Assembly: GCF_007751715.1 (NCBI RefSeq)
Contig: NZ_CP036292.1
Location: 2,108,001-2,172,000 of the forward strand
Source of the DNA: Rosistilla oblonga
GTDB taxonomy: Bacteria; Planctomycetota; Planctomycetia; Pirellulales; Pirellulaceae
DNA length: 64,000 bases
Direction of reading: 5' to 3'
Shown here: positions 1,723 through 22,987 of the stretch, in pieces
Numbering within the stretch: position 1 is the stretch's first letter
Layout of the letters: each line of letters begins with the position of its first letter
Position numbers and translations under genes: made by a program
The notes under the pieces: generated by a model
Seen by the model: the letters and a program-made list of their open reading frames with translations, nothing else
What the model was told of the DNA's origin: nothing
Databases searched by the model: none

Positions 1723-4700
1723 ATGTCCGCGGCAAGTCATAGAAACTTGTTGGTTGGTGCCTTGGCGGTTCAATTGCGGCTGATCGATGTCGGTGACGTC
1801 GCCGCGGCGATCGTCCGCTGGACGGAAGACAAGTCGCAGTCGCTGGAAGATTTGCTGCATGCGGAGAATCGCATCGATGCGCAGACCAAGCAACTGCTGA
1901 CCTCGCTTGTCGACAAACAGATCGAGTTGCATCAAGGTTCGACCGAAGCCGCACTGGGAACGATCTGCCCGCCGTCGGAACCCTCGCTGTCGACACTCTA
2001 CCAGTCGCTGCGACCGATCGAAGATGCCGATGTCACCGATTCACTGAACTCGGTTTCCGATATCGCTGCCGAATCGATCGACCCGTGGGCGACAAATTTT
2101 CATCCCACGACATCGGATGAGTTGCCAAGCGACGCGGCGGCGGCGAGCCACCGAACTCGATATCAAAAGCTGCGCGATCATGCCAAGGGAGGCCTCGGGC
2201 AGGTCTATGTCGCCCGCGACGAAGAGCTGAATCGACAGGTCGCGCTGAAACAAATTCAGGCGAGGTTCTCCGGTGACCAAGGGGCTCGGCAGCGATTCAT
2301 TCTTGAAGCCGAGATCACCGGCGGGCTGGAACATCCCGGCGTGGTCCCGGTTTATGGTTTGGGTGTGTACGAGGATGGCCAGCCCTATTATGCGATGCGA
2401 TTCATTCGCGGGCAGAGCATGGAAGCGGCGATCGCGTCGTTTCACCAGCGGTTCCCCAAAACCGGAGCGCCCGCGTGGCGCGATCCCGAGCGGACGTTGG
2501 AACTGCGAAAGCTGTTGAGTCGTGTGTTGGATGTCTGCCAAGCGATCGCGTACGCTCATTCTCGCGGCGTGTTGCACCGTGACATCAAACCCGACAACAT
2601 CATGCTGGGGAAATACGGCGAGACGTTGGTCGTCGATTGGGGCTTGGCGAAAGTCGCTGGATTAGACGATGTCGAATCAGAGGCGGTCGATGAACCGCAT
2701 CTGGCTCCCGCGTCGGGAAGCGATTCGGCGCCAACACGCTTTGGGAGCGTGATCGGAACGCCGGGCTACATGAGTCCCGAGCAGGCCAGCGGGGAGATCG
2801 ATGCGATTGGTCCTGCAAGCGATGTCTATTCGTTGGGGGCTTCGCTGTACTGTTTGTTGGTCGGCAAACCACCGTTTCAATCGCGCGACGCCGACGGCAA
2901 TCCGCTAACGATCACTCAGTTGTTAGAAAAGGTTCGCAACAGTGAATTCACCGCGCCGCGTCAAATCGATCCTGCGATTCCGAAACCACTGGCGGCGATC
3001 TGCGTTCGCGCGATGGCCAAAGATCCCGAAAATCGCTACGCCAATCCACTGGAACTAGCCGACGAACTGGAGCGTTGGATGGCCGACGAACCGGTCACAG
3101 CGTACCGCGAATCGGGCCTGCAACGACTGCGCCGTTGGGTCAAGCGGCACCAGACCTTGGCCGCTGCTAGCGCCGCGATCGTGCTGGTTTCCGTGTTGGG
3201 TTTGAGTTCGTTTTCGGTGGTGCTGGGAAAGAAGAACATCCAGTTGGCCGAGCTGGCTGATTCGCTGAGCACCAAGAACCAGCAGCTCGATCAACGCGGC
3301 CAGGAGCTCCAGAAATCGAACGAAGAGCTGCGGATCGCCGAAGCGGAGGCGACGGAAAAGGCGGCGATCGCAACGGCGGTCACCGAGTTCTTGAACGACG
3401 ACCTATTGTCTCAAGCATCACCTGCCAAAAATCCCGATCCGCAACTGCAAGTCCGCACGCTCTTTGAACAAGCACTCCAAGGCATGCAGGATCGCTTCAG
3501 CGACCAACCGTTAGTGAAAGCGAAGCTGTTGCATACGATTGGCGTCGCATCGGGCTATCTTGCTCAGTGGGGTGAAAGTGAGGCGGCGTTGGCCGAAGCG
3601 CTGCGTCTGCGGACAGAATTCTTGGGGCCCCAAGATGTCGAGACATTAAAGACCGAAGCGGCGTTGGGCCAGGTGGCTGCGTCGCGGGGGAAATATGCAA
3701 AGGCACGTACTCTGCTGACATCGACTCTGCAAACGCAGTTAAGTGAATTGGGGGACGAACATCCCGATGTCTTCGAGACGCAAAATGGTCTGGCGGGGTT
3801 GTACAGTTTGTTGGGAGAGTTTGACAAAGCGCATGAATTGAACGAACAAGCGATCGCGGGGTACACCAAATCGTTTGGGCCCGATGCCGCCGAGACGCTT
3901 GACTGTTTGATCACAAAAGTAGGCTTGCTGGCGGCAGCGGGACGATTCGCCGACGCATTGCAGCTATCGAGCGACGTACACACTCGGGCCGCTGCCGGTT
4001 TGGGGCCGATGCACTTCACAACCTACGACGCGTTGTTGTCGACAGCCCAGCAAATGTATTCGCTCGATCGTCCCGACGACGCCTACGACGTGTACACAAC
4101 CTTTCTGAAAGAGCTGATCGAAACGCAGGGCGAATCGCATCCCTATGTCGCCATCGTGCGAAACGATCTGGCGTTGATCGATTCAGATCAAGGAGACCCG
4201 GTGCAGGGGCTGGCAACGCTGCGTGAACTCGCTCGGGAATCGATCCAGACGCTTGGACCAGCCCATCGCGATTCGATCATGTCGCAGTTCAACGTGGGGA
4301 CGGCGCTGAATGCGTTGGGGCGGTTCGAAGAGTCTCAACCAATCTTTGAATCGGCGTTAAAAACGGCGGATGAGAGCCTTGGCCCGGTGAGTCCGTCCGC
4401 TCTGCAGACTCGCTTTCTACTGGCTCAAGTCCATTGGGAACTTGGTGATAGCGAGGCGGCACAACCTTTGTTGGAGGAAGTGATCGCGCTGGCGAAAACT
4501 CCGATGCAAGTGGAATCGAAAGTCGTTCTCGACGCAAAGACGTTGTTGGCGTCGATCTATGGGGCCGCTGCAAAGTACGACGAGGCTCGCGAATTACTGC
4601 TGGCGGTTCGCGCTGGGTATGCCAAGCTGGGACTTGGGAAATCGCGGGTCATGGTCTACCCAACGGAATACCTTATCGATGTCTTAGTCTACAGCGACCG

Positions 4701-6531
4701 GACCGATGAATTGGACGAACTGTTGCAGCAGCTGGACGACGATTTTGGTGCCGATTCGGTGCTCGCAAATCAGTTGAGGCTACGGATGGCGGAGAATTGG
4801 ATCGAGCGTGGGGAAATCGATCGAGCCGATGTGTCGATCCAGCAGGTGACGCAATGGCTGGCAGATCGCGATCCGTTGGAGCGGTCCGAATTTGGAGTGG
4901 CCTATTATCTGGCGGGCTTGATGAGCATGCTGAAACGCAGCCAGCAAGCGATCGACGTCTATGAACGCTTGGTCGTCCGGCAGTCGGAAGTGTTGGGCGC
5001 CAATCACGTCGATCGCTTGTTGACGCTGCACGACTTGGCTTTTGAATACAGCGAGTTCGGGCAGCACAAGGAGTCGGCCAAGCTGTATACCGAGGTCGTT
5101 CGCCGTCGAACCGAGGTCTATGGTTTGGAGAGCGATCAGACGTTGCAGTCGTTGTACAACTTGGCGATGGAGCAGTTTGCGTTGGAGGATCATCAGGGAA
5201 CGATCGAGTCGATGAAGCAATTGGTCAAGGCGGCGGAAGCTCGCGGCGAACCGATCGTCAACCGGATGGAATTGCACACGGGGCTCGCCCACGCGTTGAT
5301 GAAAACAAAGGACTACGCCGCCGCCGTGCCCCATTTCCAGGCCGGAGTCGAGGGGATGATCGAGACCTACGGCGAGGCGGACGATGACACGCTTCTGTTG
5401 ATGCACCAATTGGCCTATTGCATGGACGCCGCCGCGCAGCCCGAGGAATCGATCGCGATGTATCGCCGCGTCGTCGACGGACGATCCGAGGTGCTGGGCG
5501 CAGCTCACGGTCACACGCTGATGTCGCTGGGGAACATGGCTCAGGTCCAAGCGACTGCCGAACTGGAACAGGGAGCCGAGGAATCGATCGCCGACATGCA
5601 GCGGCGGATCGAATCGCTGGACGTCGGCGATGTGGTCGCGATCGATGCGAACTATGCGATCGCCGAGACCTATCGGAAGATGAACCGATTGGATGATGCG
5701 ATCACCTTTTACCGGAAGGTTGCCGACGGACGCCGGACGTCGCTGGGGGAAGAACACGAGCGGACGCTGTTGGCAATGCATCAGGTCGCCTACACGTGTG
5801 GCTTGGCGGGGAAACTGGATGATGCGGTCGTGATCTATGCCAAGGTCGTCGCGGGACGCAGCAAAACCTTGGGGCGAACGCACCCGCACACGATGTTGTC
5901 GCTGAACAACGCAGCCAAAATTGAAATGGGACGCCGCAAACCGGCCAAAGCCGCGGCGCTCTACGAGGACATCTTGAATCGGATCGTCGAAGACAAGGGG
6001 CTGCGGCACACCGATACGTTGCTTCCGCGGATGGAGCTAGCGAATTTGAAGTATCAGTTAAGGGAGTACGCGATGGCGACGGAGCTGTATTCGCTTTCGG
6101 TCGACGTGATGCGGAAAAGCTTAGGCAAGACGCCGACCGAGACGATGCGGGAAGGGTTCGCTGGCGTGTTGGTGATGTTGGCCGATGCCGAAGCCCACGA
6201 CGGCCAATTTCTCGCCGCGGGGAGGCACGCTCGCGAGGGACTGGAGATGTTGGAGATCGTTGCGCCGGAGAACTGGTTGCGCTATCGCAGTCTGAGTGTG
6301 ATCGGTGGATTGCAGGCCGCCGACGGACAGCATGCCGAAGCGCAAGCATCGCTGCAGCAAGCCTACGAGGGCTTGGCTGCTAGCGATTGGAAGGCGGTTG
6401 AACTGTTGAACCAAGTGCAAATCGAAACGGTCGACCGCTTGCTCGATTCTTATACGCAGACCAATAATGCGGATCAGGTCGCCAAGTGGAAACAGGTTAA
6501 GGAGAGCTTAACCGAGCAGCCGCAGCCATGA
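1723..6531 (+). CDS. Giant Ser/Thr protein kinase with TPR repeat array
   Basis: A 1602-residue Hanks-type kinase. Residues 1-145 are a variable N-terminal segment. The kinase domain spans about 147-455, with the glycine loop KGGLGQV (155-161), Lys176 in VALKQI, the catalytic HRDIKPDN with Asp287, and DWG (305-307) in place of DFG, followed by GTPGYMSPEQ. A single membrane segment lies near 478-501, then a Gln/Glu-rich coiled coil (505-560). The remaining ~1000 residues are tetratricopeptide repeats of the kinesin-light-chain type: units of about 42 residues with a recurring R-x-x-x-LG-x-x-H-x-x-TL pattern. The expected topology is an internal kinase and a large TPR domain on the other side of the membrane, which would bind partner proteins. 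GGGAG six bases before the ATG supports the start. It follows the sulfatase by 44 bases, but no functional link is evident. Confidence 0.92.
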   Translation: MSAASHRNLLVGALAVQLRLIDVGDVAAAIVRWTEDKSQSLEDLLHAENRIDAQTKQLLTSLVDKQIELHQGSTEAALGTICPPSEPSLSTLYQSLRPIEDADVTDSLNSVSDIAAESIDPWATNFHPTTSDELPSDAAAASHRTRYQKLRDHAKGGLGQVYVARDEELNRQVALKQIQARFSGDQGARQRFILEAEITGGLEHPGVVPVYGLGVYEDGQPYYAMRFIRGQSMEAAIASFHQRFPKTGAPAWRDPERTLELRKLLSRVLDVCQAIAYAHSRGVLHRDIKPDNIMLGKYGETLVVDWGLAKVAGLDDVESEAVDEPHLAPASGSDSAPTRFGSVIGTPGYMSPEQASGEIDAIGPASDVYSLGASLYCLLVGKPPFQSRDADGNPLTITQLLEKVRNSEFTAPRQIDPAIPKPLAAICVRAMAKDPENRYANPLELADELERWMADEPVTAYRESGLQRLRRWVKRHQTLAAASAAIVLVSVLGLSSFSVVLGKKNIQLAELADSLSTKNQQLDQRGQELQKSNEELRIAEAEATEKAAIATAVTEFLNDDLLSQASPAKNPDPQLQVRTLFEQALQGMQDRFSDQPLVKAKLLHTIGVASGYLAQWGESEAALAEALRLRTEFLGPQDVETLKTEAALGQVAASRGKYAKARTLLTSTLQTQLSELGDEHPDVFETQNGLAGLYSLLGEFDKAHELNEQAIAGYTKSFGPDAAETLDCLITKVGLLAAAGRFADALQLSSDVHTRAAAGLGPMHFTTYDALLSTAQQMYSLDRPDDAYDVYTTFLKELIETQGESHPYVAIVRNDLALIDSDQGDPVQGLATLRELARESIQTLGPAHRDSIMSQFNVGTALNALGRFEESQPIFESALKTADESLGPVSPSALQTRFLLAQVHWELGDSEAAQPLLEEVIALAKTPMQVESKVVLDAKTLLASIYGAAAKYDEARELLLAVRAGYAKLGLGKSRVMVYPTEYLIDVLVYSDRTDELDELLQQLDDDFGADSVLANQLRLRMAENWIERGEIDRADVSIQQVTQWLADRDPLERSEFGVAYYLAGLMSMLKRSQQAIDVYERLVVRQSEVLGANHVDRLLTLHDLAFEYSEFGQHKESAKLYTEVVRRRTEVYGLESDQTLQSLYNLAMEQFALEDHQGTIESMKQLVKAAEARGEPIVNRMELHTGLAHALMKTKDYAAAVPHFQAGVEGMIETYGEADDDTLLLMHQLAYCMDAAAQPEESIAMYRRVVDGRSEVLGAAHGHTLMSLGNMAQVQATAELEQGAEESIADMQRRIESLDVGDVVAIDANYAIAETYRKMNRLDDAITFYRKVADGRRTSLGEEHERTLLAMHQVAYTCGLAGKLDDAVVIYAKVVAGRSKTLGRTHPHTMLSLNNAAKIEMGRRKPAKAAALYEDILNRIVEDKGLRHTDTLLPRMELANLKYQLREYAMATELYSLSVDVMRKSLGKTPTETMREGFAGVLVMLADAEAHDGQFLAAGRHAREGLEMLEIVAPENWLRYRSLSVIGGLQAADGQHAEAQASLQQAYEGLAASDWKAVELLNQVQIETVDRLLDSYTQTNNADQVAKWKQVKESLTEQPQP

Positions 6532-11347: not shown

Positions 11348-13063
11348 TTAGAAGTAGCGGTTCCAGACGGCTCTCAACTGGCCGTCGAACATCTGGTCGG
11401 TTCCATCGCCCATCGGAACGGCGTAGCCCACAGAAATCGCTTCGTTATTGCAGACTTCAAATGTGCTGCCGAAGACCATGTTGAAGTTCGATTGGTAGTC
11501 GGCGTTGGGAGTTCCCAAAACAAAGATCCCATCGGACAAGGTGTTGCCGCGTTGCAATTGACGTTCGTAATGCATTTCGATCGTCGGGATGATCGCGTTG
11601 AAGATGGCATCGGGCTTTTCACCGCGACGTCGCAGGAAGTACCCTAACGCTCCATCGCTATACAGACGGGTCGTGTCGCGAAGACGACTCTCCATCCCGC
11701 TGTTTGTCACAACGTGGTTCCCCGTGACGTCGATGTCGACTTGGATGAATCCTTGGTAGAACATCCGTTCGGTCAGGTTCACGATGCTGGCGAAATAAGG
11801 CATCAGGTGGATCGCTTGGTTCTCGACCAGCAGGGCTGTCGATCCGTCGGCCATTTGGACGTTCAGGTCGTTTGTCGATGGCAGCGTCAGCGAAACACCT
11901 CCCGAAAAGACGACGTCGGTCGATTGATACAACACCTGTTTGTAGGCGAGGAACAGATCGCCGAATTCGACGTCGCCGGTTTGCGTTTGGCCATTGGCGA
12001 TCACGTCGGACGACAGGGTCGATGCGAAGGGAACGCGGAACTCGATCGATGCGCCATCGTTGCGACCAAACGCATACTCAAAGCCCGGAGTGAATCGGTT
12101 CACCGAAACTCCCGCATCGTTGAGCGGCACATTGTTCATCAAGTCGTAGTTGAAAAAGGTGCGAGTTCGCGGCATAGCGCTGTTGTTTGTCGCGATCTTC
12201 GACCGACCGACAACCGCCGCTCCCGCGTTGGCTGCGTCGGGGATGACAATGTTAAACGTTTGCAGTCCGTTGACCGAGATGTCCCACAGTTCTCCGTTGA
12301 CGATTCCGCCGCCGACCTGTTCGGTCGCCGTCGCGTTCAGGAATACGGTGTTTGGTGGCAGCCCCAGATTGGTCCCGCCGATGCTCTCGACGACTTGGAA
12401 CGTATAGCGTCCATCGCCACCTAACGTACCGGTCAGGATCGAAGCGAAGTCGGGATTGGCGACGTTGCCGGCGACGTCGTACAGCAGCGAACTGTTCGCT
12501 TGGTTGACCGGAATCGTTCCGGTGCCGGTGGCGACAAACGATGTTCCGCTAACGATCTGAGTTCCTCGCAGATTGGTCCGTCCGGATCCACCAAAGCCGC
12601 CGCCGATCATCACGGGGGCTTGGCTGATGTTTAACGCAGGTGACGGAGCACAATCGTTTAAGCAGGCGAGATTGCTGAAGGCGTTTAACAGCATCTCACA
12701 TCGGCTGGGCGCACACTCCGGTCCGCAGGATGCCGTTGGATTTCCGTAGTGCATCGGTTCGTCATACGCTAGCGGTTGCTCGTAGTAGGCCGAATCGTGG
12801 TGCTGGTGCGCGTCTTGATAGGCAACGGTAGCGATATCGCCGCCCTGACCTGTAGGCGGTTCGGGCATCGGTTGCCCACATTGGCTGCAACCTCGCGGCC
12901 CGCCAACGTAATTTTCGTTTACGTGACCGCAAACGCAGGTCACTTGCTCGGATAACACGTACGCTACCGGCCGCTGCGCAGGTGCGTTGGATGCAACCTG
13001 TGCCTGCAACTGTGCAGTTCCAACCAACAATGCGATCAAACCTAAAAGGCCCGCCCGAAACAT
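11348..13063 (-). CDS. Putative outer-membrane beta-barrel protein with N-terminal zinc-ribbon-like motif
   Basis: A 571-residue exported protein that I do not recognise as a named family. The chosen start (13063) opens on a signal peptide (residues 1-22, ending near LQAQ). Residues about 43-65 hold four cysteines in the arrangement C-x-C...C-x-x-C (CVCGHVNEN then CSQCGQP), resembling a zinc ribbon. A Cys-rich, His/Tyr-rich linker follows. From about residue 300 to the end the sequence alternates polar and hydrophobic residues in short strands (TPGFEYAFG, GDLFLAYKQVLY, GFIQVDIDV) and finishes WNRYF. A terminal aromatic residue of this sort is typical of outer-membrane barrels. It is probably a surface protein; an in-frame ATG at 13114 would disrupt the signal peptide. 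Confidence 0.55.
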   Translation of the reverse strand: MFRAGLLGLIALLVGTAQLQAQVASNAPAQRPVAYVLSEQVTCVCGHVNENYVGGPRGCSQCGQPMPEPPTGQGGDIATVAYQDAHQHHDSAYYEQPLAYDEPMHYGNPTASCGPECAPSRCEMLLNAFSNLACLNDCAPSPALNISQAPVMIGGGFGGSGRTNLRGTQIVSGTSFVATGTGTIPVNQANSSLLYDVAGNVANPDFASILTGTLGGDGRYTFQVVESIGGTNLGLPPNTVFLNATATEQVGGGIVNGELWDISVNGLQTFNIVIPDAANAGAAVVGRSKIATNNSAMPRTRTFFNYDLMNNVPLNDAGVSVNRFTPGFEYAFGRNDGASIEFRVPFASTLSSDVIANGQTQTGDVEFGDLFLAYKQVLYQSTDVVFSGGVSLTLPSTNDLNVQMADGSTALLVENQAIHLMPYFASIVNLTERMFYQGFIQVDIDVTGNHVVTNSGMESRLRDTTRLYSDGALGYFLRRRGEKPDAIFNAIIPTIEMHYERQLQRGNTLSDGIFVLGTPNADYQSNFNMVFGSTFEVCNNEAISVGYAVPMGDGTDQMFDGQLRAVWNRYF

Positions 13064-13364
13064 AAATGCATCCTTCCATATCGGCCAATGACGATTGCAG
13101 CCGGCGGCTTGCATGCCCCCCGCCTTCTAGCTACGAGTTCAGCATCGACCAACGGGATAATCGCAATAAAGAGATTATTCGCTAATGTCGTTGGAATTGG
13201 AAAAAGAGCGAATCGCCCTGCGACCCGAACAGCCCCAACGAACGCTAATCTTCGACATTAATGGCTCTCGCTGGACGATTCCTGATAGCATCGGGCCGAA
13301 AATAAAGCTTAGAATTCAAAGCACAGCAGGGGCGTCCCGGCCCGGTTCCAACGCAGCGTAGGCT
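13064..13364. other. Divergent intergenic region
   Basis: About 300 bases separate the divergent genes at 13063 and 13365 and should hold both promoters. The only structure I see is an imperfect AT-rich palindrome around 13158-13184 (GGATAATC and GATTATTC flanking a short spacer), which could be an operator. No convincing promoter boxes or RNA gene are visible. Confidence 0.3.
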
Positions 13365-15914
13365 ATGCCCGAGAATCCGACACCACGGCCGAAACTCGAT
13401 ATCACGCAAGACCTTGATGCGGCCAGCGCTCACGATCCGCGCGAATCCGATTTTTCGGTCGTCGACGACGATCGGGAACTGGCCCTGCCGACCGAGATCG
13501 GCGACTACACCGTCACCCGTTTGATTGGTTCGGGAGGAATGGGGCGGGTCTACCACGCGGTTCACCGTCCGATGGACCGCATCGTGGCGCTGAAGATGTT
13601 GCCGCCCAGCCGGATGCAAAACCACAAATCGGTCGACAGGTTTTATGCCGAAGTCCGCGCCGCGGCTCGCTTGATGCATCCCAATATCGTGACAGCGTTT
13701 GACGCCGGGCACAAAGGCGATCTGCACTATCTGGCGATGGAGTATCTCGAGGGGGCGACGCTCACCCAGATCGTCCGCGCGTCGGGGCCGCTGGAACTCT
13801 CCCGCGCCGTCGACCTGATTCGCCAAGCCGCCACCGGTTTGCAGCACGCGCATCGCGCCGGGATCGTCCATCGCGACGTCAAGCCAAGCAATCTGATGCT
13901 CACTCCCGAGGGGATCGTCAAAGTTCTCGACCTCGGGTTGGCGACGATCGGTTCGGAACCGGACAAGCAGCGGAAGCGAGGTCGGTTGGTCGGAACGATC
14001 GAATATATGGCTCCCGAGCAGATCGAAGACGCTTCGAATCCCGATCGCCGCAACGACATCTACAGCCTCGGTGCCACGTTTTTCTTCCTCCTCACCGGCC
14101 GCACGCTGTACCAAGGTGGAATCCTCGACCAGGCGCGGGCGCACCGCGATGAACCGCTCCCCGATCTCTTCGCTCTCCGCCCCGACGTCGACGTCCGCCT
14201 GGACCAAGTGATCCGGCGAATGTTGGCCAAGCGACTCGACGGTCGCTACAGTTCGTTGGCCGAAGTCTTGGAGGATCTCGACGAATGGTTAGCCGGCGCG
14301 ACGCTGTCGGATTGGACCGAAGCCGGTTCGCGGTTGACGCTCCCGGGAGAACAATTGACCGACGGCGTCGAAGCGACCACCGCGGTCGGGCGTTCGAGTG
14401 TGTTGGGGCTGGACGTGGGGATGTTTTACGTCGCCGCCGCGATGGCCGAAGCGGGGCATCCGGTTCGGACGGGCAACGCGGGGATCAACAATCAACCGCT
14501 GCTGCAGTCCGCCGTCGCCACGACTCGCGACGAACAGACGATCTTTGGCAGCGATGCGATTAAGTTGCGGACCAAGACGCCGCATCGCCTGGCTCACTGC
14601 GTGCAGTTGTATCTGGGGACGACGAAGTTGGATCGCCACATCGGCGACCGCCAGTGTCCGCCCGAAGTTGCAATCGGGATGATCATGCGTCACGCGGCGC
14701 GGAACGCTTGGGAATTAAATGGGCGTCCGGCGGTGGTGGCCGTCACCGTTCCCGCCTGTTACGACCAAGCGCGGCGACGCAGCACGATGCAAGCGGCTCA
14801 GGTCGCCGGATTCGATTCGATCCGCTTGATCGATCGGCCGCTGGCTGCCGCGCAAAGTCAGTTGATCGAAGAACATGCTGCCCTGCCACCGCCGAAGCCC
14901 TCGGAGGTCTGTTATTGGATGGTCGTCTCGTTGACCGGGTTGGCGATGGAGATCTCGGTGGTCCGGCATGTCGGCGGCCGATTGCAATTATTAGCCAGCG
15001 TCGGCGACTGGAATTTGGGCCTGCTGGCATGGCAACAGCGTGTCGTCGATCTGGCAGCTACCGATTGTCTGCGGCGGCTGCGACTCGATCCCCGCAAAGA
15101 CCTCAAGGATGCTGTCAGTCTGCAATTGGCGTGCGAGAAGGCGCTTCGCCAGCTGTCGATCAAACCGCAAGCCGATCTCGATTTCCGGCTGCAGGGCCGC
15201 GACGCGACAGTCACGCTCAAGCGGGCGACGTTGGGAGCGGCTTGCAGCGACCTGTTGGTCCATCTCAATGGCATGATCGGTCAAGCGCTCAAAGAATCGG
15301 GAGTCGACGCGAGCCAGTTGAGCAATTGTTTGACCGTCGGCATGTTGACGCGAATGCCTCAGGTCAGCGACGTGTTGCGAGGCCGAATCGGATCGCAGAT
15401 GCCGATCATCGCTGTCGATCGTCCCGCCTTGGCTGCGGGAGCTGCGTCGGCGGTGATGGGGGAATTGCCTGGGCAAACGCACGGCTTCCCGGCTCCCCAT
15501 TCGTGCAGCACGCACGACCTGGGGCTATTGATTCGCGACGGCAAGCAAAAGCGACCGCGGACGGTTCCGGTCTTGCCGCGAGCGACCAAGCTGCCCGCGC
15601 GCAAGTCGCGACGTCTGCTGCAACCCCAGCCGGGCCAACGCCCTTCGCTGACGCTGATCGAATCGGCTGGCTGGCAGGGAGACGCTTGGCGGTCGTTGGG
15701 AAACTTCCATCTACCCGAACACGACGCCGAAGCACCGTTGGAAGCGGTTTTAGAAGTCGATGCCAACGGCTTGTTGAAGGTTGGCGTTCACGACCCCAAC
15801 ACCGGCCACGTACAACGCGTCCCGCCTCTGCCGACGCCGATGATCGACGAAGCCGACTTGGCGACCTGGCGAGCCTGGATCGAAAAGACAACTCGCAACC
15901 AACCACCGTCATAA
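13365..15914 (+). CDS. Ser/Thr protein kinase fused to a degenerate Hsp70-like ATPase domain
   Basis: An 849-residue protein with two enzyme-like domains and no clear membrane helix. The kinase domain covers about 47-310: glycine loop IGSGGMGRV, Lys77, HRDVKPSN with Asp171, DLG (189-191) in place of DFG, and GTIEYMAPEQ. Residues about 345-700 match the Hsp70/DnaK nucleotide-binding fold in order: VLGLDVG (346-352), then VTVPACYDQARR with the following AGFDSIRLIDRPLAAA (near 460-496), a region equal to DnaK phosphate-2 (VSLTG), LLASVGDWNLG, a helical segment like DnaK's EKAK-ELS, and VGMLTRMPQV (658-667). Several nucleotide contacts are changed: the phosphate-1 TT is MF, the DLGGGT loop is VSLTG, and the adenosine-site GG is GM. 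It may therefore be a pseudo-ATPase that senses a ligand or client and controls the kinase. A basic tail with a small C-terminal domain follows. Confidence 0.85.
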   Translation: MPENPTPRPKLDITQDLDAASAHDPRESDFSVVDDDRELALPTEIGDYTVTRLIGSGGMGRVYHAVHRPMDRIVALKMLPPSRMQNHKSVDRFYAEVRAAARLMHPNIVTAFDAGHKGDLHYLAMEYLEGATLTQIVRASGPLELSRAVDLIRQAATGLQHAHRAGIVHRDVKPSNLMLTPEGIVKVLDLGLATIGSEPDKQRKRGRLVGTIEYMAPEQIEDASNPDRRNDIYSLGATFFFLLTGRTLYQGGILDQARAHRDEPLPDLFALRPDVDVRLDQVIRRMLAKRLDGRYSSLAEVLEDLDEWLAGATLSDWTEAGSRLTLPGEQLTDGVEATTAVGRSSVLGLDVGMFYVAAAMAEAGHPVRTGNAGINNQPLLQSAVATTRDEQTIFGSDAIKLRTKTPHRLAHCVQLYLGTTKLDRHIGDRQCPPEVAIGMIMRHAARNAWELNGRPAVVAVTVPACYDQARRRSTMQAAQVAGFDSIRLIDRPLAAAQSQLIEEHAALPPPKPSEVCYWMVVSLTGLAMEISVVRHVGGRLQLLASVGDWNLGLLAWQQRVVDLAATDCLRRLRLDPRKDLKDAVSLQLACEKALRQLSIKPQADLDFRLQGRDATVTLKRATLGAACSDLLVHLNGMIGQALKESGVDASQLSNCLTVGMLTRMPQVSDVLRGRIGSQMPIIAVDRPALAAGAASAVMGELPGQTHGFPAPHSCSTHDLGLLIRDGKQKRPRTVPVLPRATKLPARKSRRLLQPQPGQRPSLTLIESAGWQGDAWRSLGNFHLPEHDAEAPLEAVLEVDANGLLKVGVHDPNTGHVQRVPPLPTPMIDEADLATWRAWIEKTTRNQPPS

Positions 15915-16092: not shown

Positions 16093-18402
16093 TTAAACAC
16101 CGGTTGTTGTGCGGCGTGTCCCGAACCAGGCGATAGCTAAAAAGATCGTGGCGTGCAGCAATATCACGAGGTACGACGTGGGAAGAGACGGCTCGAAATC
16201 GGCGGCGAGCCGTTCGGCTTCCGGCAGGCAACCCTCGATCGCTTTCTGCCCCCAAAATACCGTCGTGGTTGTTTTGGCGATCCATTCGGGCAACCCCGAC
16301 AGCGAAGCGACTACGCCACCGAGGATGATCTGAGGGATCACCACGACGGGGACGATCGCCACTGCGGTCTCTTCCGATTTCGAACAGGCCGAGATCGCTT
16401 GCCCTAATAATGATCCCGTTAGCGCCAGCAGACACAGGGTGCCAAGCATCGGCAACTTGTCGCCGGGAGGATCGTACCAAGCGATCGCGATCGCTCCCAA
16501 CAAAGCCGCTTGGCCGAGGGAGAGCAATGCAAAAAACAAGATCTTCGCGCCGAGATAGGCTTCGGGGATCAAGTTGAAATTGCGTTCGCGACCATAGATC
16601 ATCCGTTCCTGAACCAGTTCTTTGACGCTCGAATTGCATCCCAGCCAAAAACAGCTGACGCTCAACAGGAACAACAGATTACGTGTCGTGGCGATCCGTT
16701 CGGGCGGGAGACTTTCGCTCAAGTCCTCAAACCGCCCGAAGACGAGACACAGCAAGAGGCCCACCAGCAGCGGCTGTCCGATCAACGTGGCGACCGCTGG
16801 AAGGTCGCCTCGCCAAACGGCAACGGTGCGGCGAAAGATGGTGGCAAACTGCCGCCGGCCAATCGACGCCGACGTGCGGTAAGAAGATTGCGACGCCGCT
16901 GCCTCGGAGTCTTGTTTCTGAAGTGCGGGTTTTCGGTCGACGACATACCGGCGGTAGTGCGGACTTGTCAGGAAGGCAGCGGCCGATGCTTCCGCCGGCT
17001 GTTTGGCGAGCGCCGGATAGATTTCCGCCAATCGATTCACCTTGAAATATTCGAGCGCTTCAGCGGGAGTACCCAAAAAGGCGAGATGTCCGCCTGCGGT
17101 CAGCACCAGAATCAATCCGCAGTATTCGCTGACATGCGCCAGATTGTGGGTCACGCAGACAAGCGTCTTGCCACTGGCAGAGAGGCGTTGGAACAACTGC
17201 ATCATCTCTTGGTCGGCCTGTTCATCCAGCCCCGACGTCACCTCATCGAGGAACAGCAAGCTGGGGTCGGAGATCAGTTCGGTCCCCAGCCCGACGCGTT
17301 TCAGCTGTCCGCCGCTAAGTTGCGAAATCCGCACATCGCGACGCGTTTCCAAGCCCACTCTCTGGACGATCGTATCGACAGCCTGTTCCAGTTCGGCCGG
17401 TCGCAGATCGGGCGGCAGACGCAACGCCGCGGCAAATCGAAGTGTCTGCTGAACCGTCAGTGATTCGTGCAGCGTAAGCGATTGGGGGATCACGCACAGA
17501 TCGGTCTTGATCGCGTTGAAGTTGCGATGCAGATCGCGTCCGTTGACATACGCTCGGCCCTCGGTCGGATCGCCGCGACCGCTGAGCATTCGCAACAACG
17601 TCGACTTTCCCGACCCGCTGGGCCCGATGATGCAAGCAAACTCACCTGGATTGAGTACCAGTTCCACGTTGTTCAGCAACCGCAAGGCATCGCCACGACC
17701 GCCCGCTCGTATCTCCAGCCCCAATCGTTCGGCGACCAATTGGACGTTGTTCTTTCGCGAACGACTGACCAGTCGATGCGCTCGCAGTTCCAACGAAAAC
17801 GGCCCGATGTCGATCGTGTCGCCATCGTTTAATTGGCACCGCGTCGCGATCGGTTGTCCATTGACAAAGGTCCCGTTGGCGCTGCCAACATCTTCGATCG
17901 CGATCTGTTGGCCGTCGCGGGATAGTTGTGCGTGCGATCGCGAAACGTGCGGATGGTCGAGACAAAAGTCGGCGAGATCGGGATCGCGCCCGATCAACCC
18001 ACCGTTGCCAATATCGAAGGTCTCCAGGTTTTGCAACTGCTGGAGAATCTTAGGAACCTCAGCCGTCAGCAGAGTTCCCGCGGGAGCCGACCGCGCCTCT
18101 TCGAGACCGATCACTTGCACGATTGGACCGGTGAAGCCCAGTCGAATCGTATCGCCACTATTAATTCGATGCGACGAATCCACCGTCGCTCCATTGATCA
18201 AGGTCTGGTTCGATCGACTGTGATGCAGCAAACGCCAGCCATCGCCATCGAATTGCAGTTCCGCGTGCAGCGAACTGACTTTGGGGTAGCGTGCGTCGTC
18301 GAACCGCACTTCGCAATCCTTGGCTCTTCCCAAGCGGACCGCTTGGTTTCGGAAGTCGAAGACCTGAACCGATCCATCGGCGTGTTCGATGTGCAACCTC
18401 AT
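16093..18402 (-). CDS. FHA-FHA-ABC transporter (ABC-2/ABCG-type permease fused to ATPase)
   Basis: A 769-residue protein. Two forkhead-associated domains come first (about 5-95, VRLGRAKDCEVRF; about 130-205, GLIGRDPDLADF with SRSHAQLS and NGTFVNG), both keeping the phosphothreonine-binding Arg, Ser and Asn pattern. An ABC ATPase follows (about 225-445): Walker A GPSGSGKST, signature LSGGQLKR, Walker B LLFLDE and the switch His in CVTHN. The last 250 residues hold about six membrane helices of ABC-2 type. The layout matches mycobacterial Rv1747, an FHA-regulated exporter controlled by the adjacent kinase PknF. The start at 18402 overlaps the upstream stop as ATGA, implying translational coupling; an in-frame extension to 18498 would overlap the upstream gene and lacks support. 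The exported substrate is unknown, possibly lipid or a cell-envelope precursor. Confidence 0.9.
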   Translation of the reverse strand: MRLHIEHADGSVQVFDFRNQAVRLGRAKDCEVRFDDARYPKVSSLHAELQFDGDGWRLLHHSRSNQTLINGATVDSSHRINSGDTIRLGFTGPIVQVIGLEEARSAPAGTLLTAEVPKILQQLQNLETFDIGNGGLIGRDPDLADFCLDHPHVSRSHAQLSRDGQQIAIEDVGSANGTFVNGQPIATRCQLNDGDTIDIGPFSLELRAHRLVSRSRKNNVQLVAERLGLEIRAGGRGDALRLLNNVELVLNPGEFACIIGPSGSGKSTLLRMLSGRGDPTEGRAYVNGRDLHRNFNAIKTDLCVIPQSLTLHESLTVQQTLRFAAALRLPPDLRPAELEQAVDTIVQRVGLETRRDVRISQLSGGQLKRVGLGTELISDPSLLFLDEVTSGLDEQADQEMMQLFQRLSASGKTLVCVTHNLAHVSEYCGLILVLTAGGHLAFLGTPAEALEYFKVNRLAEIYPALAKQPAEASAAAFLTSPHYRRYVVDRKPALQKQDSEAAASQSSYRTSASIGRRQFATIFRRTVAVWRGDLPAVATLIGQPLLVGLLLCLVFGRFEDLSESLPPERIATTRNLLFLLSVSCFWLGCNSSVKELVQERMIYGRERNFNLIPEAYLGAKILFFALLSLGQAALLGAIAIAWYDPPGDKLPMLGTLCLLALTGSLLGQAISACSKSEETAVAIVPVVVIPQIILGGVVASLSGLPEWIAKTTTTVFWGQKAIEGCLPEAERLAADFEPSLPTSYLVILLHATIFLAIAWFGTRRTTTGV

Positions 18403-19247
18403 GTTCGCCTGCCAAACTTTAATCGGAAGCGTTGTTCCCCAATCCGAAACTCGCAAGACTTGCCTACGTTCAGCACAATCTGTGGCACTCGCAACCAAAT
18501 CCCATTGATCGTATTACCGCTTTCGATAACCCAGGTGCCTCGTTCGCTGCGAGTTAGCACGGCGTGTTGCATGCGTGTGAAGGGATCGCGGGGGCGTTGG
18601 ATGTCGCAACCTTCGCCGCGTCCGATCACATACCGTTGGCGATCGAGCATCGTACGCGCCTCGGCGCGCCCCGCAACGATCTCCGAAAAGATCACCGCTC
18701 CCGGCAGATGTTGCCCCTCCAACGCCTTGGTCGATGCCGGCAACAGATCCTCGACGCCTGCCATCGCGACGGTTTCGGGAACCTCTTCGCGAACAATATC
18801 CATCTTGTAGTGGCCGCCGCCGATCAAGACCTCTGCATCGTGCATCAGAGGAGCCTTGGTTACGCGAACGAACAATCCGTTGCGGCTCTGCAGATCGGTG
18901 ACGCACAACCGAGTTTGTCCGGCGACCGATTGGCGGTGGATCGCAAGATGCCGCGACGAAATCATTTCGTCGTGTGTGATCTGCAAGTCGCCTTCGGTCC
19001 GACCAATCGAAAACCGATCTCCGCGGATCCGGATCGCTTCGCCGGAATCCTTTCCATCGTCGCAGACGACCAGCAACGCAACAGGCGGCCGCGCGGTCGG
19101 ACGAAACATCTTTTCGTCATTGTCGGCTGTTGTTTTGGCGGACCCTTTCGCTTGGCGGCGAAGTTCAGCCTGCACGCGCTGCACCTCTTCGTCGGACTCG
19201 AGTTGGGTTGGTGGTGGCGCGTCGTCGTTCATGCTGTCATCGATCAA
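18399..19247 (-). CDS. Double FHA-domain protein
   Basis: A soluble protein of 282 residues with two FHA phosphopeptide-binding domains. The first lies at about 70-150 (FSIGRTEGDLQI, SSRHLAIH, LQSRNGLFV) and the second at about 195-275 (YVIGRGEGCDIQ, MQHAVLT, TINGIWL). The first 50 residues are charged and probably disordered. The gene lies between a transmembrane kinase (stop 17 bases upstream) and an FHA-ABC transporter (ATGA overlap), so it likely works as a phospho-dependent adaptor between the two. The start is uncertain: TTG at 19247 gives the longest form, while an ATG at 19232 would remove only five residues; neither has a strong ribosome site. Confidence 0.85.
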   Translation of the reverse strand: MIDDSMNDDAPPPTQLESDEEVQRVQAELRRQAKGSAKTTADNDEKMFRPTARPPVALLVVCDDGKDSGEAIRIRGDRFSIGRTEGDLQITHDEMISSRHLAIHRQSVAGQTRLCVTDLQSRNGLFVRVTKAPLMHDAEVLIGGGHYKMDIVREEVPETVAMAGVEDLLPASTKALEGQHLPGAVIFSEIVAGRAEARTMLDRQRYVIGRGEGCDIQRPRDPFTRMQHAVLTRSERGTWVIESGNTINGIWLRVPQIVLNVGKSCEFRIGEQRFRLKFGRRT

Positions 19248-19264
19248 TACGAACTTGTTTAATT

Positions 19265-22200
19265 TTAACCGGAGATAGGGCGGATGCTGATCGACCGGAA
19301 GGCGACCTCACCGTCGAGCGATTGCAAAAGTATGTGCCCGCTGCGTCGTACGTGGATCTCCGGCTGACCTCTGCGTCTAGATTCCGATAGTGTTTTTCGC
19401 CAGGACGGCGAAGAGGTGTCGTACTCAAGCAGCTTCTTGCCGTTGAGCCAGTGTTCCACCGTCGTCCCGTTGCAAACGATCCGAGTCGTATTCCATTGTC
19501 CAAGCCGCGTGTTGGTGGCACCTGCGGGGGCGATCACTCGCCAAAGCGAACCGGTCGACATTTTGGGGCTCATCACATTGGCGAATCCCACCTCGTCGAT
19601 GATTTGATATTCGGTCCCCGCGGAGGTTTGAGAGTTCAATTCGCGGTAATAGATCCCACTGTTTGCGTTGGGACCGATCTTCCATTCTGCGGCGAGTTCG
19701 AAGTCATCATATTCATCGCGCGAGATCGCAAGTCCCTCGCCGTCCTTCGCTACCAACATTCCATCCCGCACTTTAAACGGGCCCAGCGACTGCCAGGCAC
19801 TTGTGTCGGAACCATCGAACAGCTGCACAAACTCGTTGGTGCTTGGCTGGGGCTGGCTGATGCTGGAAGTGCTTCCCAGGTTTCCCGAATCAGAACCGTC
19901 AGCGTTGTTGTCTGGCTGTTCGCGCCCAAACCATTGGCAGAAATAACCAGGATTGTGCTGCACCGATTGATTGGGTTGGTCGGCCCAAAAACTCTGGACT
20001 CTCCGCACCTTTGTAAAGTTGGCGATCAATACCATGAAGTCTTCGCCGCCATCTTTGTTGTCGGGTTGGCTTCCAACCCAGTTGCGATATCTCAGCGGTT
20101 CCCCCGTTATCCACGTCCACTTGCCCTCTTGGTCTTCATCGCTGGCACCCACCCAAACCGCATCGAGCCCCGCTTTTTTGCTGATCTGGAAGAGGAAATC
20201 GTTTTCTTCCTGCGACTTGACGACCGCAAGATTGCCCCCCAGCAACGTGCAGCGATTTCGCGCTTCGTGCCAGGTAAGATTTTCTGTGAACAGTTTGTAA
20301 TGAGAACCTCGGAATTCGACCGCGTCCTGCGGAGGCACAAGTGGTCCCTGAGGTCGAACAGCAAAACTGCCCGATCGATCGCCAGGTCCCTGCCATTGGA
20401 AATCGATTCGCGGGCCGACTGCATCGTTCGAGATGGTTCCCGAGTTGTCTCCACCTACGTTTCCAGCAATCGCATGCACGTCGCTGGCAAGCCAACTCAT
20501 CTTGCCTTCTTTGATCTCACCTCGCACTTCGCGTTGGAACCCTTGCGCCATAGAAAACAACGCGCGAAACGAAGTCCCCGTGCGAGACAACATGGTCAAC
20601 GAGACTGGTTTGCCGTTATCGCTTCCGCCCCAGACCGCTCCCGGTGAAAACAGACGGTCGAGACTCGCTTCGCTAAGCGATTGGATCGTTCCGCCAGGCG
20701 GAAGTGTTGGCGAGACAGATGGTGCGACTTCTGGCGAGACGCTTGGCGTCGGTGGCGGCATTGGTGATGGCACCGTGGCGACCGCTTCCACGGCAGGGGG
20801 CGATTTGGTTGGCGGCACCGACTCGCTTGGCTCGACCGGTTGCACTTTTAAACGGATCGTTTCCTGGTCGCCTCGTTCGATCGTTACCGTTTCGCCCGCG
20901 ATCGCGATTCCGCCCGAACGGACTTCGACGTGGCGGGTTCCCGGTTTTACCCGAACACTGGCCAGCGATTCCCCTTCGTTCCAGCGGAGCTGAATCGTTT
21001 CTTGGTCGACCAAAACCTCCGCATCGTCGGGGAGATTTTCGATCACGATCGTCCCCTCGCCGGTGCGAAGCATCAACACCGCGGCGAGCAACAATGCGAG
21101 AAAGCCACCGCCGCTTGCGATTGCCAACGTCGGCGGCAGCTTGGACCGACCTCCGCCACTTTGCGTCCGCTTGGCAGGCTGAACCGATTTACCGACACGC
21201 CGATCGCTGACTTTCAAATCGGCAAGACTCGCCGCCACGCTCGGCTGGCGAGCGACAACCGGAGCGATTACGGGTTGTTCGATCGAGGTGTCGCGACTGG
21301 GAGATGGCAGGTCGACGTGAGTGTCGGTCTTGGCAGGATCGATTTGCGTTTGTGATTTGAAATTGGCTTTGCCCGCAAACGGCTTAAGCGCGTCGGCAAC
21401 TTGCTTTGGCGTGGAATACCTTTTCGACGGCTCCTTGGCCATCATTTTGGCGATGATCTTGGATAGCTCGACCGGAACGTCCAGCCGCGACAGACTGACA
21501 TAATCGGCTTCCTGTTGGGCATGTGCCATCAAGACGCTTTGGAATGTTCCGCTGAACGGCGGCTTTCCCATCAGCAAGTGATACAACGTGCACCCCAGGC
21601 TGTAGATGTCGGCTCGAATGTCCGCGGCGGCGGCATTCAAGGCTTGTTCGGGAGCCATGTATTCGGGCGTCCCCAGCATCGTTCCATCGGCAGTCAGCCC
21701 TTCGGTGTTGCGTTCACTGCTAGCCTTGGCGAGACCAAAGTCGAGAATTTTGATCCGCAGATTTCCATCCTCTTTAAAGACCATCACGTTGGATGGTTTG
21801 ATGTCGCGGTGCACCGTATGTTTCGAATTCGCATGCTGCAACGCGGCAGCGATCTGGAGTGCCAGCGTGCACGCGACGGGAATCGGAACGGGGTGATATT
21901 TGCGAATGAACCGATGCAGGTCGACTCCCGGAACATACTCCATCGAAAAGACTAACTGCGTCGGCAATGGAACCTGTTGGTAAGCTGTCGCGATCGCGGG
22001 GTGGTTCAATTTTCCGATCGCCCGCATCTCGTTGCGGAAGCGTTGTTTGGCGGAATCGTTGGTGACCAATTGATCGCTGAGTACCTTCAACACCTCGACC
22101 CGATCCATCGGGATATATTTGGCCAGATAAACAACTCCCATCCCGCCGCGACCAAGTTCCTTGAGAACGTGGTAGTCGGTGCAGGCGGTGAGTTCTTCGG

Positions 22201-22495
22201 GCAAGCCGGTCGGTTGCGGGGATGGTCTCGATTGCGAAACGCTCTGTTTGACGATGCTGGGATCTCCCGCGGCGAGACTCGGGTTGGCTGCCTTGGTCTC
22301 TTGAACACGCTTCAGAAATCCATCCCCCGACAACGCCGCAACCCGCGACTGCAGTTCCGGATTGCACTCGATCATCGCCGCAACGCGCAGTTCAGCCACC
22401 GAATCAAGCTTGCCGCTGACGAAGTCGTTCAGCACTGTATCGTCGACGATCGCGGGATTGGTGCGAGTTCGCTTCGTTGGGGATTTATCGGACAC
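19265..22495 (-). CDS. Receptor-like Ser/Thr kinase with C-type lectin and DUF1080 ectodomain
   Basis: A 1076-residue kinase with an extracellular part of unusual composition. The kinase domain (about 108-365) has LGRGGMGVV, Lys137, HRDIKPSN (Asp231), DFG (252-254) and GTPEYMAPEQ. One membrane helix lies near 453-476. Outside, in order: a PEGA-like beta domain (about 480-550), a Pro/Ser/Val linker, a C-type lectin domain (about 728-858, with WHEAR, WVGASDED, WTWITGEP, the galactose-type QPDN...GGEDF loop and a final CQW), and a DUF1080 / 3-keto-disaccharide-hydrolase-like domain (about 888-1074, FVQLFDGSD to the end). The start is GTG at 22495, chosen because a strong GGAGG lies four bases before it; in-frame ATGs at 22528 and 22513 lie upstream of that site. 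It heads an operon with FHA and FHA-ABC genes and may report a sugar signal to them. Confidence 0.9.
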   Translation of the reverse strand: MSDKSPTKRTRTNPAIVDDTVLNDFVSGKLDSVAELRVAAMIECNPELQSRVAALSGDGFLKRVQETKAANPSLAAGDPSIVKQSVSQSRPSPQPTGLPEELTACTDYHVLKELGRGGMGVVYLAKYIPMDRVEVLKVLSDQLVTNDSAKQRFRNEMRAIGKLNHPAIATAYQQVPLPTQLVFSMEYVPGVDLHRFIRKYHPVPIPVACTLALQIAAALQHANSKHTVHRDIKPSNVMVFKEDGNLRIKILDFGLAKASSERNTEGLTADGTMLGTPEYMAPEQALNAAAADIRADIYSLGCTLYHLLMGKPPFSGTFQSVLMAHAQQEADYVSLSRLDVPVELSKIIAKMMAKEPSKRYSTPKQVADALKPFAGKANFKSQTQIDPAKTDTHVDLPSPSRDTSIEQPVIAPVVARQPSVAASLADLKVSDRRVGKSVQPAKRTQSGGGRSKLPPTLAIASGGGFLALLLAAVLMLRTGEGTIVIENLPDDAEVLVDQETIQLRWNEGESLASVRVKPGTRHVEVRSGGIAIAGETVTIERGDQETIRLKVQPVEPSESVPPTKSPPAVEAVATVPSPMPPPTPSVSPEVAPSVSPTLPPGGTIQSLSEASLDRLFSPGAVWGGSDNGKPVSLTMLSRTGTSFRALFSMAQGFQREVRGEIKEGKMSWLASDVHAIAGNVGGDNSGTISNDAVGPRIDFQWQGPGDRSGSFAVRPQGPLVPPQDAVEFRGSHYKLFTENLTWHEARNRCTLLGGNLAVVKSQEENDFLFQISKKAGLDAVWVGASDEDQEGKWTWITGEPLRYRNWVGSQPDNKDGGEDFMVLIANFTKVRRVQSFWADQPNQSVQHNPGYFCQWFGREQPDNNADGSDSGNLGSTSSISQPQPSTNEFVQLFDGSDTSAWQSLGPFKVRDGMLVAKDGEGLAISRDEYDDFELAAEWKIGPNANSGIYYRELNSQTSAGTEYQIIDEVGFANVMSPKMSTGSLWRVIAPAGATNTRLGQWNTTRIVCNGTTVEHWLNGKKLLEYDTSSPSWRKTLSESRRRGQPEIHVRRSGHILLQSLDGEVAFRSISIRPISG

Positions 22496-22987
22496 TTTCC
22501 CTCCTTCAGGCATGTCGTGTCCCACCATGCTAGCGTTGTCTTCAGCCGTGAGCTATAGGCGGGTTCTAATACCGAAGGCAACCGATTCGCTTTCCCAGTC
22601 ACAGAAATTCTGAGTTCGCTTGAAATTGTTTGGAATTTGCAGATCAGCCGCGAGCATCTGCTTTTTGTTATCGGGTGTTTCGTCCCGGCCAAGGCTTCCT
22701 CGGGATCGGCGTGGGGGCGGAGGGGGACCTCGGAAATAACAGATCGGTTCGCTCTCACATTCAGGCAATCGTGGCATGATGAGTCGCACGGGGTGTTGCC
22801 GCGACAACGCCGGTGTGGCTCACGATTCCGAAGCAGACTTCAGGCCGAACGCTTTTCGTTCAACTGATGAAATTTGTTGACTGGCAACGAGTTCGTTCAT
22901 AGATTGCGAGGGTTCAAACGGGCATCAGCCTGGGGGCAACGTGTGACCGCGTCGAATATGACAACAGTTGGAGAGGCCGCCTTAATC
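22496..22987. other. Divergent intergenic region
   Basis: About 490 bases between the divergent receptor-kinase operon and the DUF4838 gene. It must contain both promoters. I see no RNA gene, no convincing repeat and no protein-coding pattern; short open frames here lack ribosome sites. Confidence 0.3.

Follow-up and report, generated by a model that had tools for sequence, protein, structure and literature searches.

What does an Hsp70 do once it is joined to a protein kinase and its ATP site has gone? The question is raised by a gene of the planctomycete Rosistilla oblonga (Pirellulaceae), which lies at positions 13365-15914, on the forward strand, of a 64,000-nucleotide stretch of contig NZ_CP036292.1 (positions 2,108,001 to 2,172,000; this whole stretch is called the window below). 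Its product of 849 amino acids (aa) carries a Ser/Thr kinase domain followed by an Hsp70-like half. An earlier note on this DNA, made from the letters alone, had described a complete Hanks kinase fused to a pseudo-Hsp70, and both parts of that description hold. Judging from its residues, the Hsp70 half can no longer hydrolyse ATP, those that hold Mg-ATP and those that catalyse its hydrolysis being gone. The protein belongs to a class of such fusions, called degenerate in the following, of which we found 90 full-length copies in 14 genera. The reading that we favour, and consider fairly probable, is that a lidless, non-hydrolysing pseudo-Hsp70 regulates an active kinase by binding proteins; the regulation itself is what we infer, as is the sensing role that the earlier note gave to the Hsp70-like module.

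The ATP site of the Hsp70 half

In DnaK, K70 touches the gamma-phosphate, and the water molecules around the Mg ion are held by D8, E171 and D194; T11 and D393 have documented roles as well, P143 is a switch that stabilises the ATP state, and R151, at the interface, makes contact with the substrate-binding domain (SBD) (all from the available text of PMC12406271). We use the numbering of Escherichia coli DnaK for these positions, set by motif on the same genome's own DnaK. At T11, K70, E171, D194 and T199 the window protein has Met, Gln, Arg, Ser and Ala, i.e. the residues for Mg-ATP and hydrolysis are missing. The three changes that the earlier note had picked out are all present, with the phosphate-1 TT replaced by M353-F354, the phosphate-2 DLGGGT by S522-LTGLA and the adenosine-site GG by G659-M660, and the five motif words it quoted all occur in the translation of the open reading frame (ORF). 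The parts of the gene are as follows, with NBD standing for nucleotide-binding domain and pLDDT for the predicted local distance difference test of AlphaFold.

13365-15914, +: coding sequence of the kinase/pseudo-Hsp70 fusion, 849 aa, ATG start (Pfam, ORF translation)
13365-13478, +: disordered N-terminus, residues 1-38 (AlphaFold pLDDT < 50)
13506-14252, +: Ser/Thr kinase domain with its catalytic residues, residues 48-296 (Pfam PF00069, 4.6e-48; 13 kinase positions 90/90 each in the degenerate class)
14295-14396, +: flexible linker, residues 311-344 (pLDDT < 50 for 315-341)
14397-15488, +: pseudo-NBD, residues 345-708 (PDB sequence alignment, AlphaFold models, Foldseek)
14412-14426, +: remnant of the phosphate-1 loop, D350-V-G-M-F354, aligned with D8 to T12 of DnaK, neither Thr being left
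14604-14606, +: Q414, aligned with the catalytic K70 of DnaK (Lys in 0/90)
14751-14777, +: retained interdomain relay, P463 to R471, aligned with P143 to R151 of DnaK (90/90 each; roles from the available text of PMC12406271)
14835-14837, +: R491 at the E171 position, charge reversed by alignment counts (Arg 53/90, Lys 37/90)
14928-14951, +: phosphate-2 loop S522-LTGLAM-E529, which replaces DLGGGTFD in the alignment
15135-15158, +: helix E591 to S598, which we take to be that of the adenosine site, with K270 replaced by L594 and E267 present in 90/90 (alignment)
15339-15353, +: G659-MLTR663, which replaces GG-STR in the alignment
15519-15818, +: substrate-binding beta domain (SBD-beta), residues ~719-818 (Pfam, PDB alignment, AlphaFold models)
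15849-15896, +: C-terminal helix, residues 829-844, all that remains at the position of the lid (models; W835 and W838 conserved in >=95% of the degenerate class)

We searched 241 genomes of the same family with a profile built from 15 fusions and retained the ORFs that cover both domains. The 145 matches, once same-gene duplicates and a truncated copy (L035) were removed, correspond to at least 121 different fusions of full length, spread over at least 118 of the 241 genomes and 33 genera; this is a lower bound, which covers matches down to about 600 bits and leaves most fusions cut by contig ends uncounted. A survey of prokaryotic Ser/Thr kinases (BMC Genomics 2005, available text of PMC1262709) had moreover listed the combination of kinase and HSP70 for Pirellula sp. 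(gi|32474490), so that the "unusual arrangement" of the earlier note was too strong a term. Fusions were classified by 11 ATP-site residues, as intact when 10-11 are kept, intermediate with 6-9, and degenerate with 5 or fewer. This resulted in 19 intact, 11 intermediate and 90 degenerate fusions. The remaining one (L165) also scores 5, but we judged it odd (end branch of 2.49) and took it out of the classes by hand, the strict rule giving 91 degenerate fusions. None of the 33 genera has two classes.

Within the degenerate class, K70, E171, D194, K270 and D366 are never kept (0/90 each), and T11, G342 and T199 are kept in 1, 2 and 3 of the 90 copies, respectively. The place of E171 is taken by Arg in 53 copies and by Lys in the other 37. 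P143 and R151, which lie outside the pocket, are present in 90/90 each. The ATP-hydrolysing engine has thus been lost, with these two relay residues left in place. We take K270, D366, E267 and G342 to have roles in the nucleotide pocket.

The other classes keep much more of the site. K70, E171, D194, T199, K270 and G342 are found in 19/19 intact fusions, as are T11, D8, G10, G197, G341, P143 and R151, the exceptions to this complete conservation being E267 (18), D366 (17), R345 (17) and S274 (16). The fusions L060 and L063 (genomes G015 and G230) make up a further intact-site type, in which R345 is replaced by Tyr and D366 by Ile. Intermediate fusions retain K70, E171 and D194 in 11/11, have Lys at T199 in 10/11 and Thr at T12 in 0/11; by these residues they look as if hydrolysis, not binding, was lost. 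In the intermediates L047, L064, L020, L061, L056, L058, L065, L072, L075 and L097, G197 is changed to Ala or Thr and T199 to Lys, with K70, E171 and D194 still in place.

A scan of named genomes with one peptide pattern of the degenerate class gave 72 pattern matches at 63 loci, all planctomycete, in taxa that include Rhodopirellula (a member of Pirellulaceae), Rubripirellula, Roseimaritima, Aporhodopirellula, Pirellula and Laterigemmans. From the 55 usable loci we excluded the long ones (L216, L237, L238), and in the resulting set (the window gene and 52 loci, largely of the same species as the family set) E171 is Arg or Lys in 53/53, P143 and R151 are present in 53/53, and so are three kinase positions. 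Long degenerate fusions also occur in G134 and G145 (L163, at 2867-6421 on the forward strand, and L162), each of these genomes having a second degenerate fusion; L163 has two kinase domains ahead of the Hsp70 half.

Kinase, fold and substrate-binding domain

The Pfam profile Pkinase (PF00069) matches residues 48-296 at 4.6e-48 (164.3 bits for a cut-off of 31.7) and HSP70 (PF00012) matches residues 413-819 at 1.7e-34 (119.5 bits for a cut-off of 20.6). The equivalog models score under their cut-offs, with 268.2 bits for PknB (PASTA kinase, NF033483; cut-off 450) and 104.5 bits for DnaK (TIGR02350; cut-off 822.55). The catalytic residues of the window protein (K77, E96, H169-R170-D171, N176 and D189) are each conserved in 90/90 of the degenerate class, where the VAIK Lys, the αC Glu, HRD, the Asn and the DFG Asp are among 13 invariant kinase positions. 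We found no convincing membrane helix in the protein, and we rejected a membrane-anchored receptor: the 19 most hydrophobic residues (515-533, peak of 1.73) are a pair of core strands in the model, which makes an anchor unlikely. The sequence is thus that of an active-looking, soluble Ser/Thr kinase.

The resemblance to Hsp70 is homology rather than chance, since phmmer against the PDB matched a bacterial DnaK (4rtf_D) at 4e-27 across residues 346-816 and Foldseek returned full-length Hsp70 matches with a TM-score of about 0.85 of the query. AlphaFold models are confident both for the full-length protein (53 sequences; pLDDT of 85.1, predicted TM-score (pTM) of 0.83) and for the Hsp70 half alone (48 sequences; pLDDT of 93.0, pTM of 0.93). 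The modelled fold is that of an Hsp70 (actin-like), a point that the earlier note had left to structure prediction, and conservation of the catalytic nucleotide residues, expected in the ordinary chaperone that it had considered as the alternative, is lacking. Its further statement that there is no SBD-beta is refuted. The alignment to 4rtf_D continues through the SBD-beta of DnaK, the Pfam HSP70 profile is followed up to position 494 of 599, and the model has a beta-sandwich at residues 719-818. Only the alpha-helical lid is absent, the modelled protein ending after the single helix 829-844. The peptide cleft is hydrophobic at the positions of I401, F426, I438 and V440 in 89-90 of the 90 degenerate fusions.

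The best PDB matches of the Hsp70 half are docked Hsp70s, mostly in the ATP state, with a root-mean-square deviation (rmsd) of 3.1-3.9 Å over about 540 columns and a query TM-score (TMq) of 0.84-0.87; they include 4b9q, 5nro, 5tky and lidless AMPylated BiP. The undocked structures 2kho, 2v7y, 1yuw and 5obu deviate by 12.8-26.5 Å, and the full-length model shows the same trend. Hence, the SBD-beta is predicted to be docked on the NBD as in an ATP-bound Hsp70, without need of nucleotide.

Origin and role of the fusion

Ratios of nonsynonymous to synonymous substitution rates (dN/dS) among three congeners are 0.037-0.057 for the pseudo-NBD, 0.053-0.077 for the SBD-beta and 0.044-0.077 for the kinase, and are rough because dS is high (0.7-1.4). 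In the degenerate class, 33 positions of the Hsp70 half are conserved in >=95% of copies. These patterns point to an Hsp70 half that is under purifying selection, maintained and not decaying.

We built a tree of the Hsp70 parts (62 rows, including 45 of the 121 fusions, picked below 60% identity) and one of the kinases (88 rows with the same 45 fusions, with support from the Shimodaira-Hasegawa-like approximate likelihood ratio test (SH-aLRT) only). In the former, the degenerate parts fall into a single clade (100/100), which sits on a long branch; four intermediates and L165 are added at the next fork that has support (97/83), and L155 comes in at 86/77. The intact fusions are found in the midst of stand-alone lidless Hsp70s or stand apart (L060), and this scatter implies that fusion or fission occurred more than once. 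In the kinase tree, the degenerate clade (SH-aLRT of 96) joins the same four intermediates (95), L155, L165 and the intact fusions are placed elsewhere, and deeper forks are weak. The trees argue for a single origin of the degenerate class. The simplest picture is that one fusion gave rise to this class and to the four intermediates, and that the ATP site was lost after the fusion; L155 and L165 fit this picture unclearly.

Beyond the family, fusions were sought at a strict threshold (1e-190), which leaves room for weaker ones elsewhere. A sample of the order (396 genomes) has 67 matching genomes, one of them (G040) outside the family, and a sample of the phylum (392 genomes) has 4, again with one (G560) outside. 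The fusions of these two genomes (L275 and L276, respectively) have an intact phosphate-1 motif (GIDLGTTYS), fall outside both the degenerate and the intermediate class, and are probably independent fusions.

The architecture has thus been on record since 2005, and we found no report of the conserved loss of the ATP site or of the three classes. The Pirellula sp. protein of 2005 has the same two-domain order, comes from the same bacterial group and ends in an HSP70-homologous domain; the available text of its account (PMC1262709) is silent on the ATP site, the classes and the SBD. It presumably belongs to the degenerate class, as the fusion of Rhodopirellula europaea (L198) has Met at K70, Arg at E171 and Gly at D194. 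Conserved loss of the ATP site is not described in the available texts of PMC1262709, PMC7159879, PMC8195603 and PMC5587647, and Hsp70, DnaK and heat shock are absent from the main text of a 2024 survey of planctomycete kinases (PMC11032199). More generally, our searches of the open-access literature, supplements aside, turned up no description of this loss or of the classes. RB12942 of R. baltica, a heat-shock-induced Ser/Thr kinase (available text of PMC2754498), may correspond to this fusion protein.

If the favoured reading is right, the Hsp70 half would bind proteins, or serve as a scaffold, independently of nucleotide. Its ligand would be an unfolded segment or a partner protein, and this binding would bring together or release the kinase domain, turning phosphorylation on or off. 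The Hsp70 shape has been preserved without the ATP site, and many related species maintain the pairing with a kinase, so the broken engine of a chaperone has probably found a second use as the control part of a signalling enzyme. A more detailed version, which we regard as tentative, is that a chaperone-kinase fusion lost hydrolysis first (the intermediate stage, with T199K but K70, E171 and D194 still present) and the entire Mg-ATP site later, with the P143-R151 relay left in place. The Hsp70 half, free of nucleotide and permanently docked, would then read protein clients and gate the kinase, as the built-in sensor of a signalling enzyme.

The nearest functional likeness is Ssz1, an atypical Hsp70 of the yeast ribosome-associated complex (RAC) that has a part like SBD-beta but lacks SBD-alpha, hydrolyses ATP little or not at all and is kept in the ATP-bound conformation (available text of PMC8476630). 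The Hsp70 half of the window protein shares the SBD-beta and the missing SBD-alpha, and is expected not to hydrolyse ATP. However, Ssz1 binds ATP and acts with Zuo1 at the ribosome, whereas this half lacks the Mg-ATP residues and has the kinase fused to it as its partner. Hsp110/Sse1 is likewise an atypical Hsp70 with marginal ATPase activity (available text of PMC8476630), but Sse1 binds ATP, and its rmsd to the model is 5.6-5.8. Related in sequence are the stand-alone lidless Hsp70s of the family (L002 and L170-L181, L003 being similar), which share the NBD, the SBD-beta and the lack of a full lid and differ in having no kinase and phosphate motifs that are intact where read.

Several observations weigh against a nucleotide-independent, protein-binding Hsp70 half. 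The degenerate class retains D8 (70 Asp and 20 Glu of 90), G10 (87/90), G197 (89/90), E267 (90/90) and G341 (90/90), so some ligand could still bind. Further interface residues are lost: Y145 is found in 0/90 degenerate fusions compared with 19/19 intact ones; N147, D148 and D393 are lost in 90/90, yet they are also lost in 19/19 intact fusions. The docked pose comes from the degenerate protein only, without an intact-site fusion folded as a control, and docking does not follow nucleotide strictly, as 6eof (AMPylated, ADP) matches docked and 5obu (AMPPNP) does not. Chain C of the RAC structure 6sr6, which we take to be Ssz1, fits the model poorly (rmsd of 16.4, TMq of 0.60), and the likeness to Ssz1 is therefore one of function, not of shape. 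The cleft is partly altered, with hydrophobic residues in 40/90 at V436 and in 53/90 at I472. Finally, no gene accompanies the fusion gene consistently, even the most frequent family of neighbours being found at 15 of 66 loci only.

The residues left in the pocket could instead mean that it was repurposed for another small ligand, e.g. an anionic metabolite or a Mg-free signalling nucleotide, that signals to the kinase via the P143-R151 relay. An acidic residue at D8 in 90/90, the near-complete conservation of E267, G341 and G197, and the Arg or Lys at E171 throughout the class, as if a basic group were selected, are in line with this idea, as is a conserved signature peculiar to the class (YDQ and R471 after the TVP loop). 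We nevertheless regard it as unlikely, because the class is highly variable at D194, G198, G229 and G342, unlike in a uniform new pocket.

It is less probable still that the Hsp70 half forms a heterodimer with an ordinary chaperone (DnaK or a lidless Hsp70), in the manner of Ssz1 or Hsp110, to recruit or regulate it, and so brings the kinase to chaperone clients. The outline given above for Ssz1 (available text of PMC8476630) and the presence of DnaK and two lidless Hsp70s in the genome would suit such a role, but the model is less like Sse1 and 6sr6_C than like docked DnaK and BiP.

Two further explanations are very improbable. Erosion of the ATP site and the free variation of several positions would suit a decaying, functionless remnant, but such a remnant would not be expected to have a dN/dS of 0.04-0.08, as low as that of the kinase, which led us to reject neutral decay, nor 90 full-length copies in 14 genera with those 33 conserved positions and a confident fold. 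A chaperone that still hydrolyses ATP, as may be suggested by the intact-site fusions of the same family (19/121), conflicts with the complete absence of K70, E171, D194, K270 and D366 from the class.

For many bacterial kinases the signal has yet to be found, and the pseudo-Hsp70 half is a concrete candidate for an input domain of such enzymes. Pseudokinases are familiar; in this fusion it is the chaperone that is dead, next to a kinase that seems to be alive. Intact, intermediate and dead ATP sites in living relatives also provide a natural series for finding out which functions of Hsp70 depend on the nucleotide cycle, and whether the Hsp70 body is able to sense a ligand once that cycle is gone.

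Genome and neighbourhood

The genome (7.25 Mb, one contig) has 7 PF00012 matches in 6 genes: DnaK (L001), two lidless or lid-poor Hsp70s (L002 and L003), the window fusion and two more divergent relatives (L005 and L006). The other five genes have intact phosphate-1 (DLGTT) and phosphate-2 (D-x-GGGT) motifs. With 65 Pkinase matches in the genome, the fusion is one kinase among many.

A conserved operon was rejected on the neighbour counts given above, many of the 66 loci being cut by contig ends. A heat-shock element of the CIRCE type was rejected as well, as its consensus has 0 matches within the window when up to 3 mismatches are allowed. Downstream of the fusion gene lie an ABC transporter with two N-terminal FHA domains (16093-18498, reverse strand) and an adjoining protein with two FHA domains (18399-19247, reverse strand). 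FHA domains bind phosphothreonine, which makes these two proteins attractive as readers of that mark. A link between the fusion and this FHA-ABC transporter was rejected: in a BLAST search at 1e-5 against the neighbouring ORFs of 66 loci, the FHA parts of both proteins match the window alone, and thus nothing within the ~7 kb downstream of the fusion gene in either congener.

Upstream and divergent to the fusion gene, a protein of 588 aa (11348-13114, reverse strand) has no Pfam match at 0.001 and is found at the same place in both congeners with 75% identity. A second kinase gene (19265-22528, reverse strand; 1087 aa), which has an unusual tail, combines Pkinase, C-type lectin and 3-keto-disaccharide hydrolase domains, and a further kinase match lies in a frame of 1603 aa, at about 2185-3042 of the window on the forward strand (2110185-2111042 in the genome).

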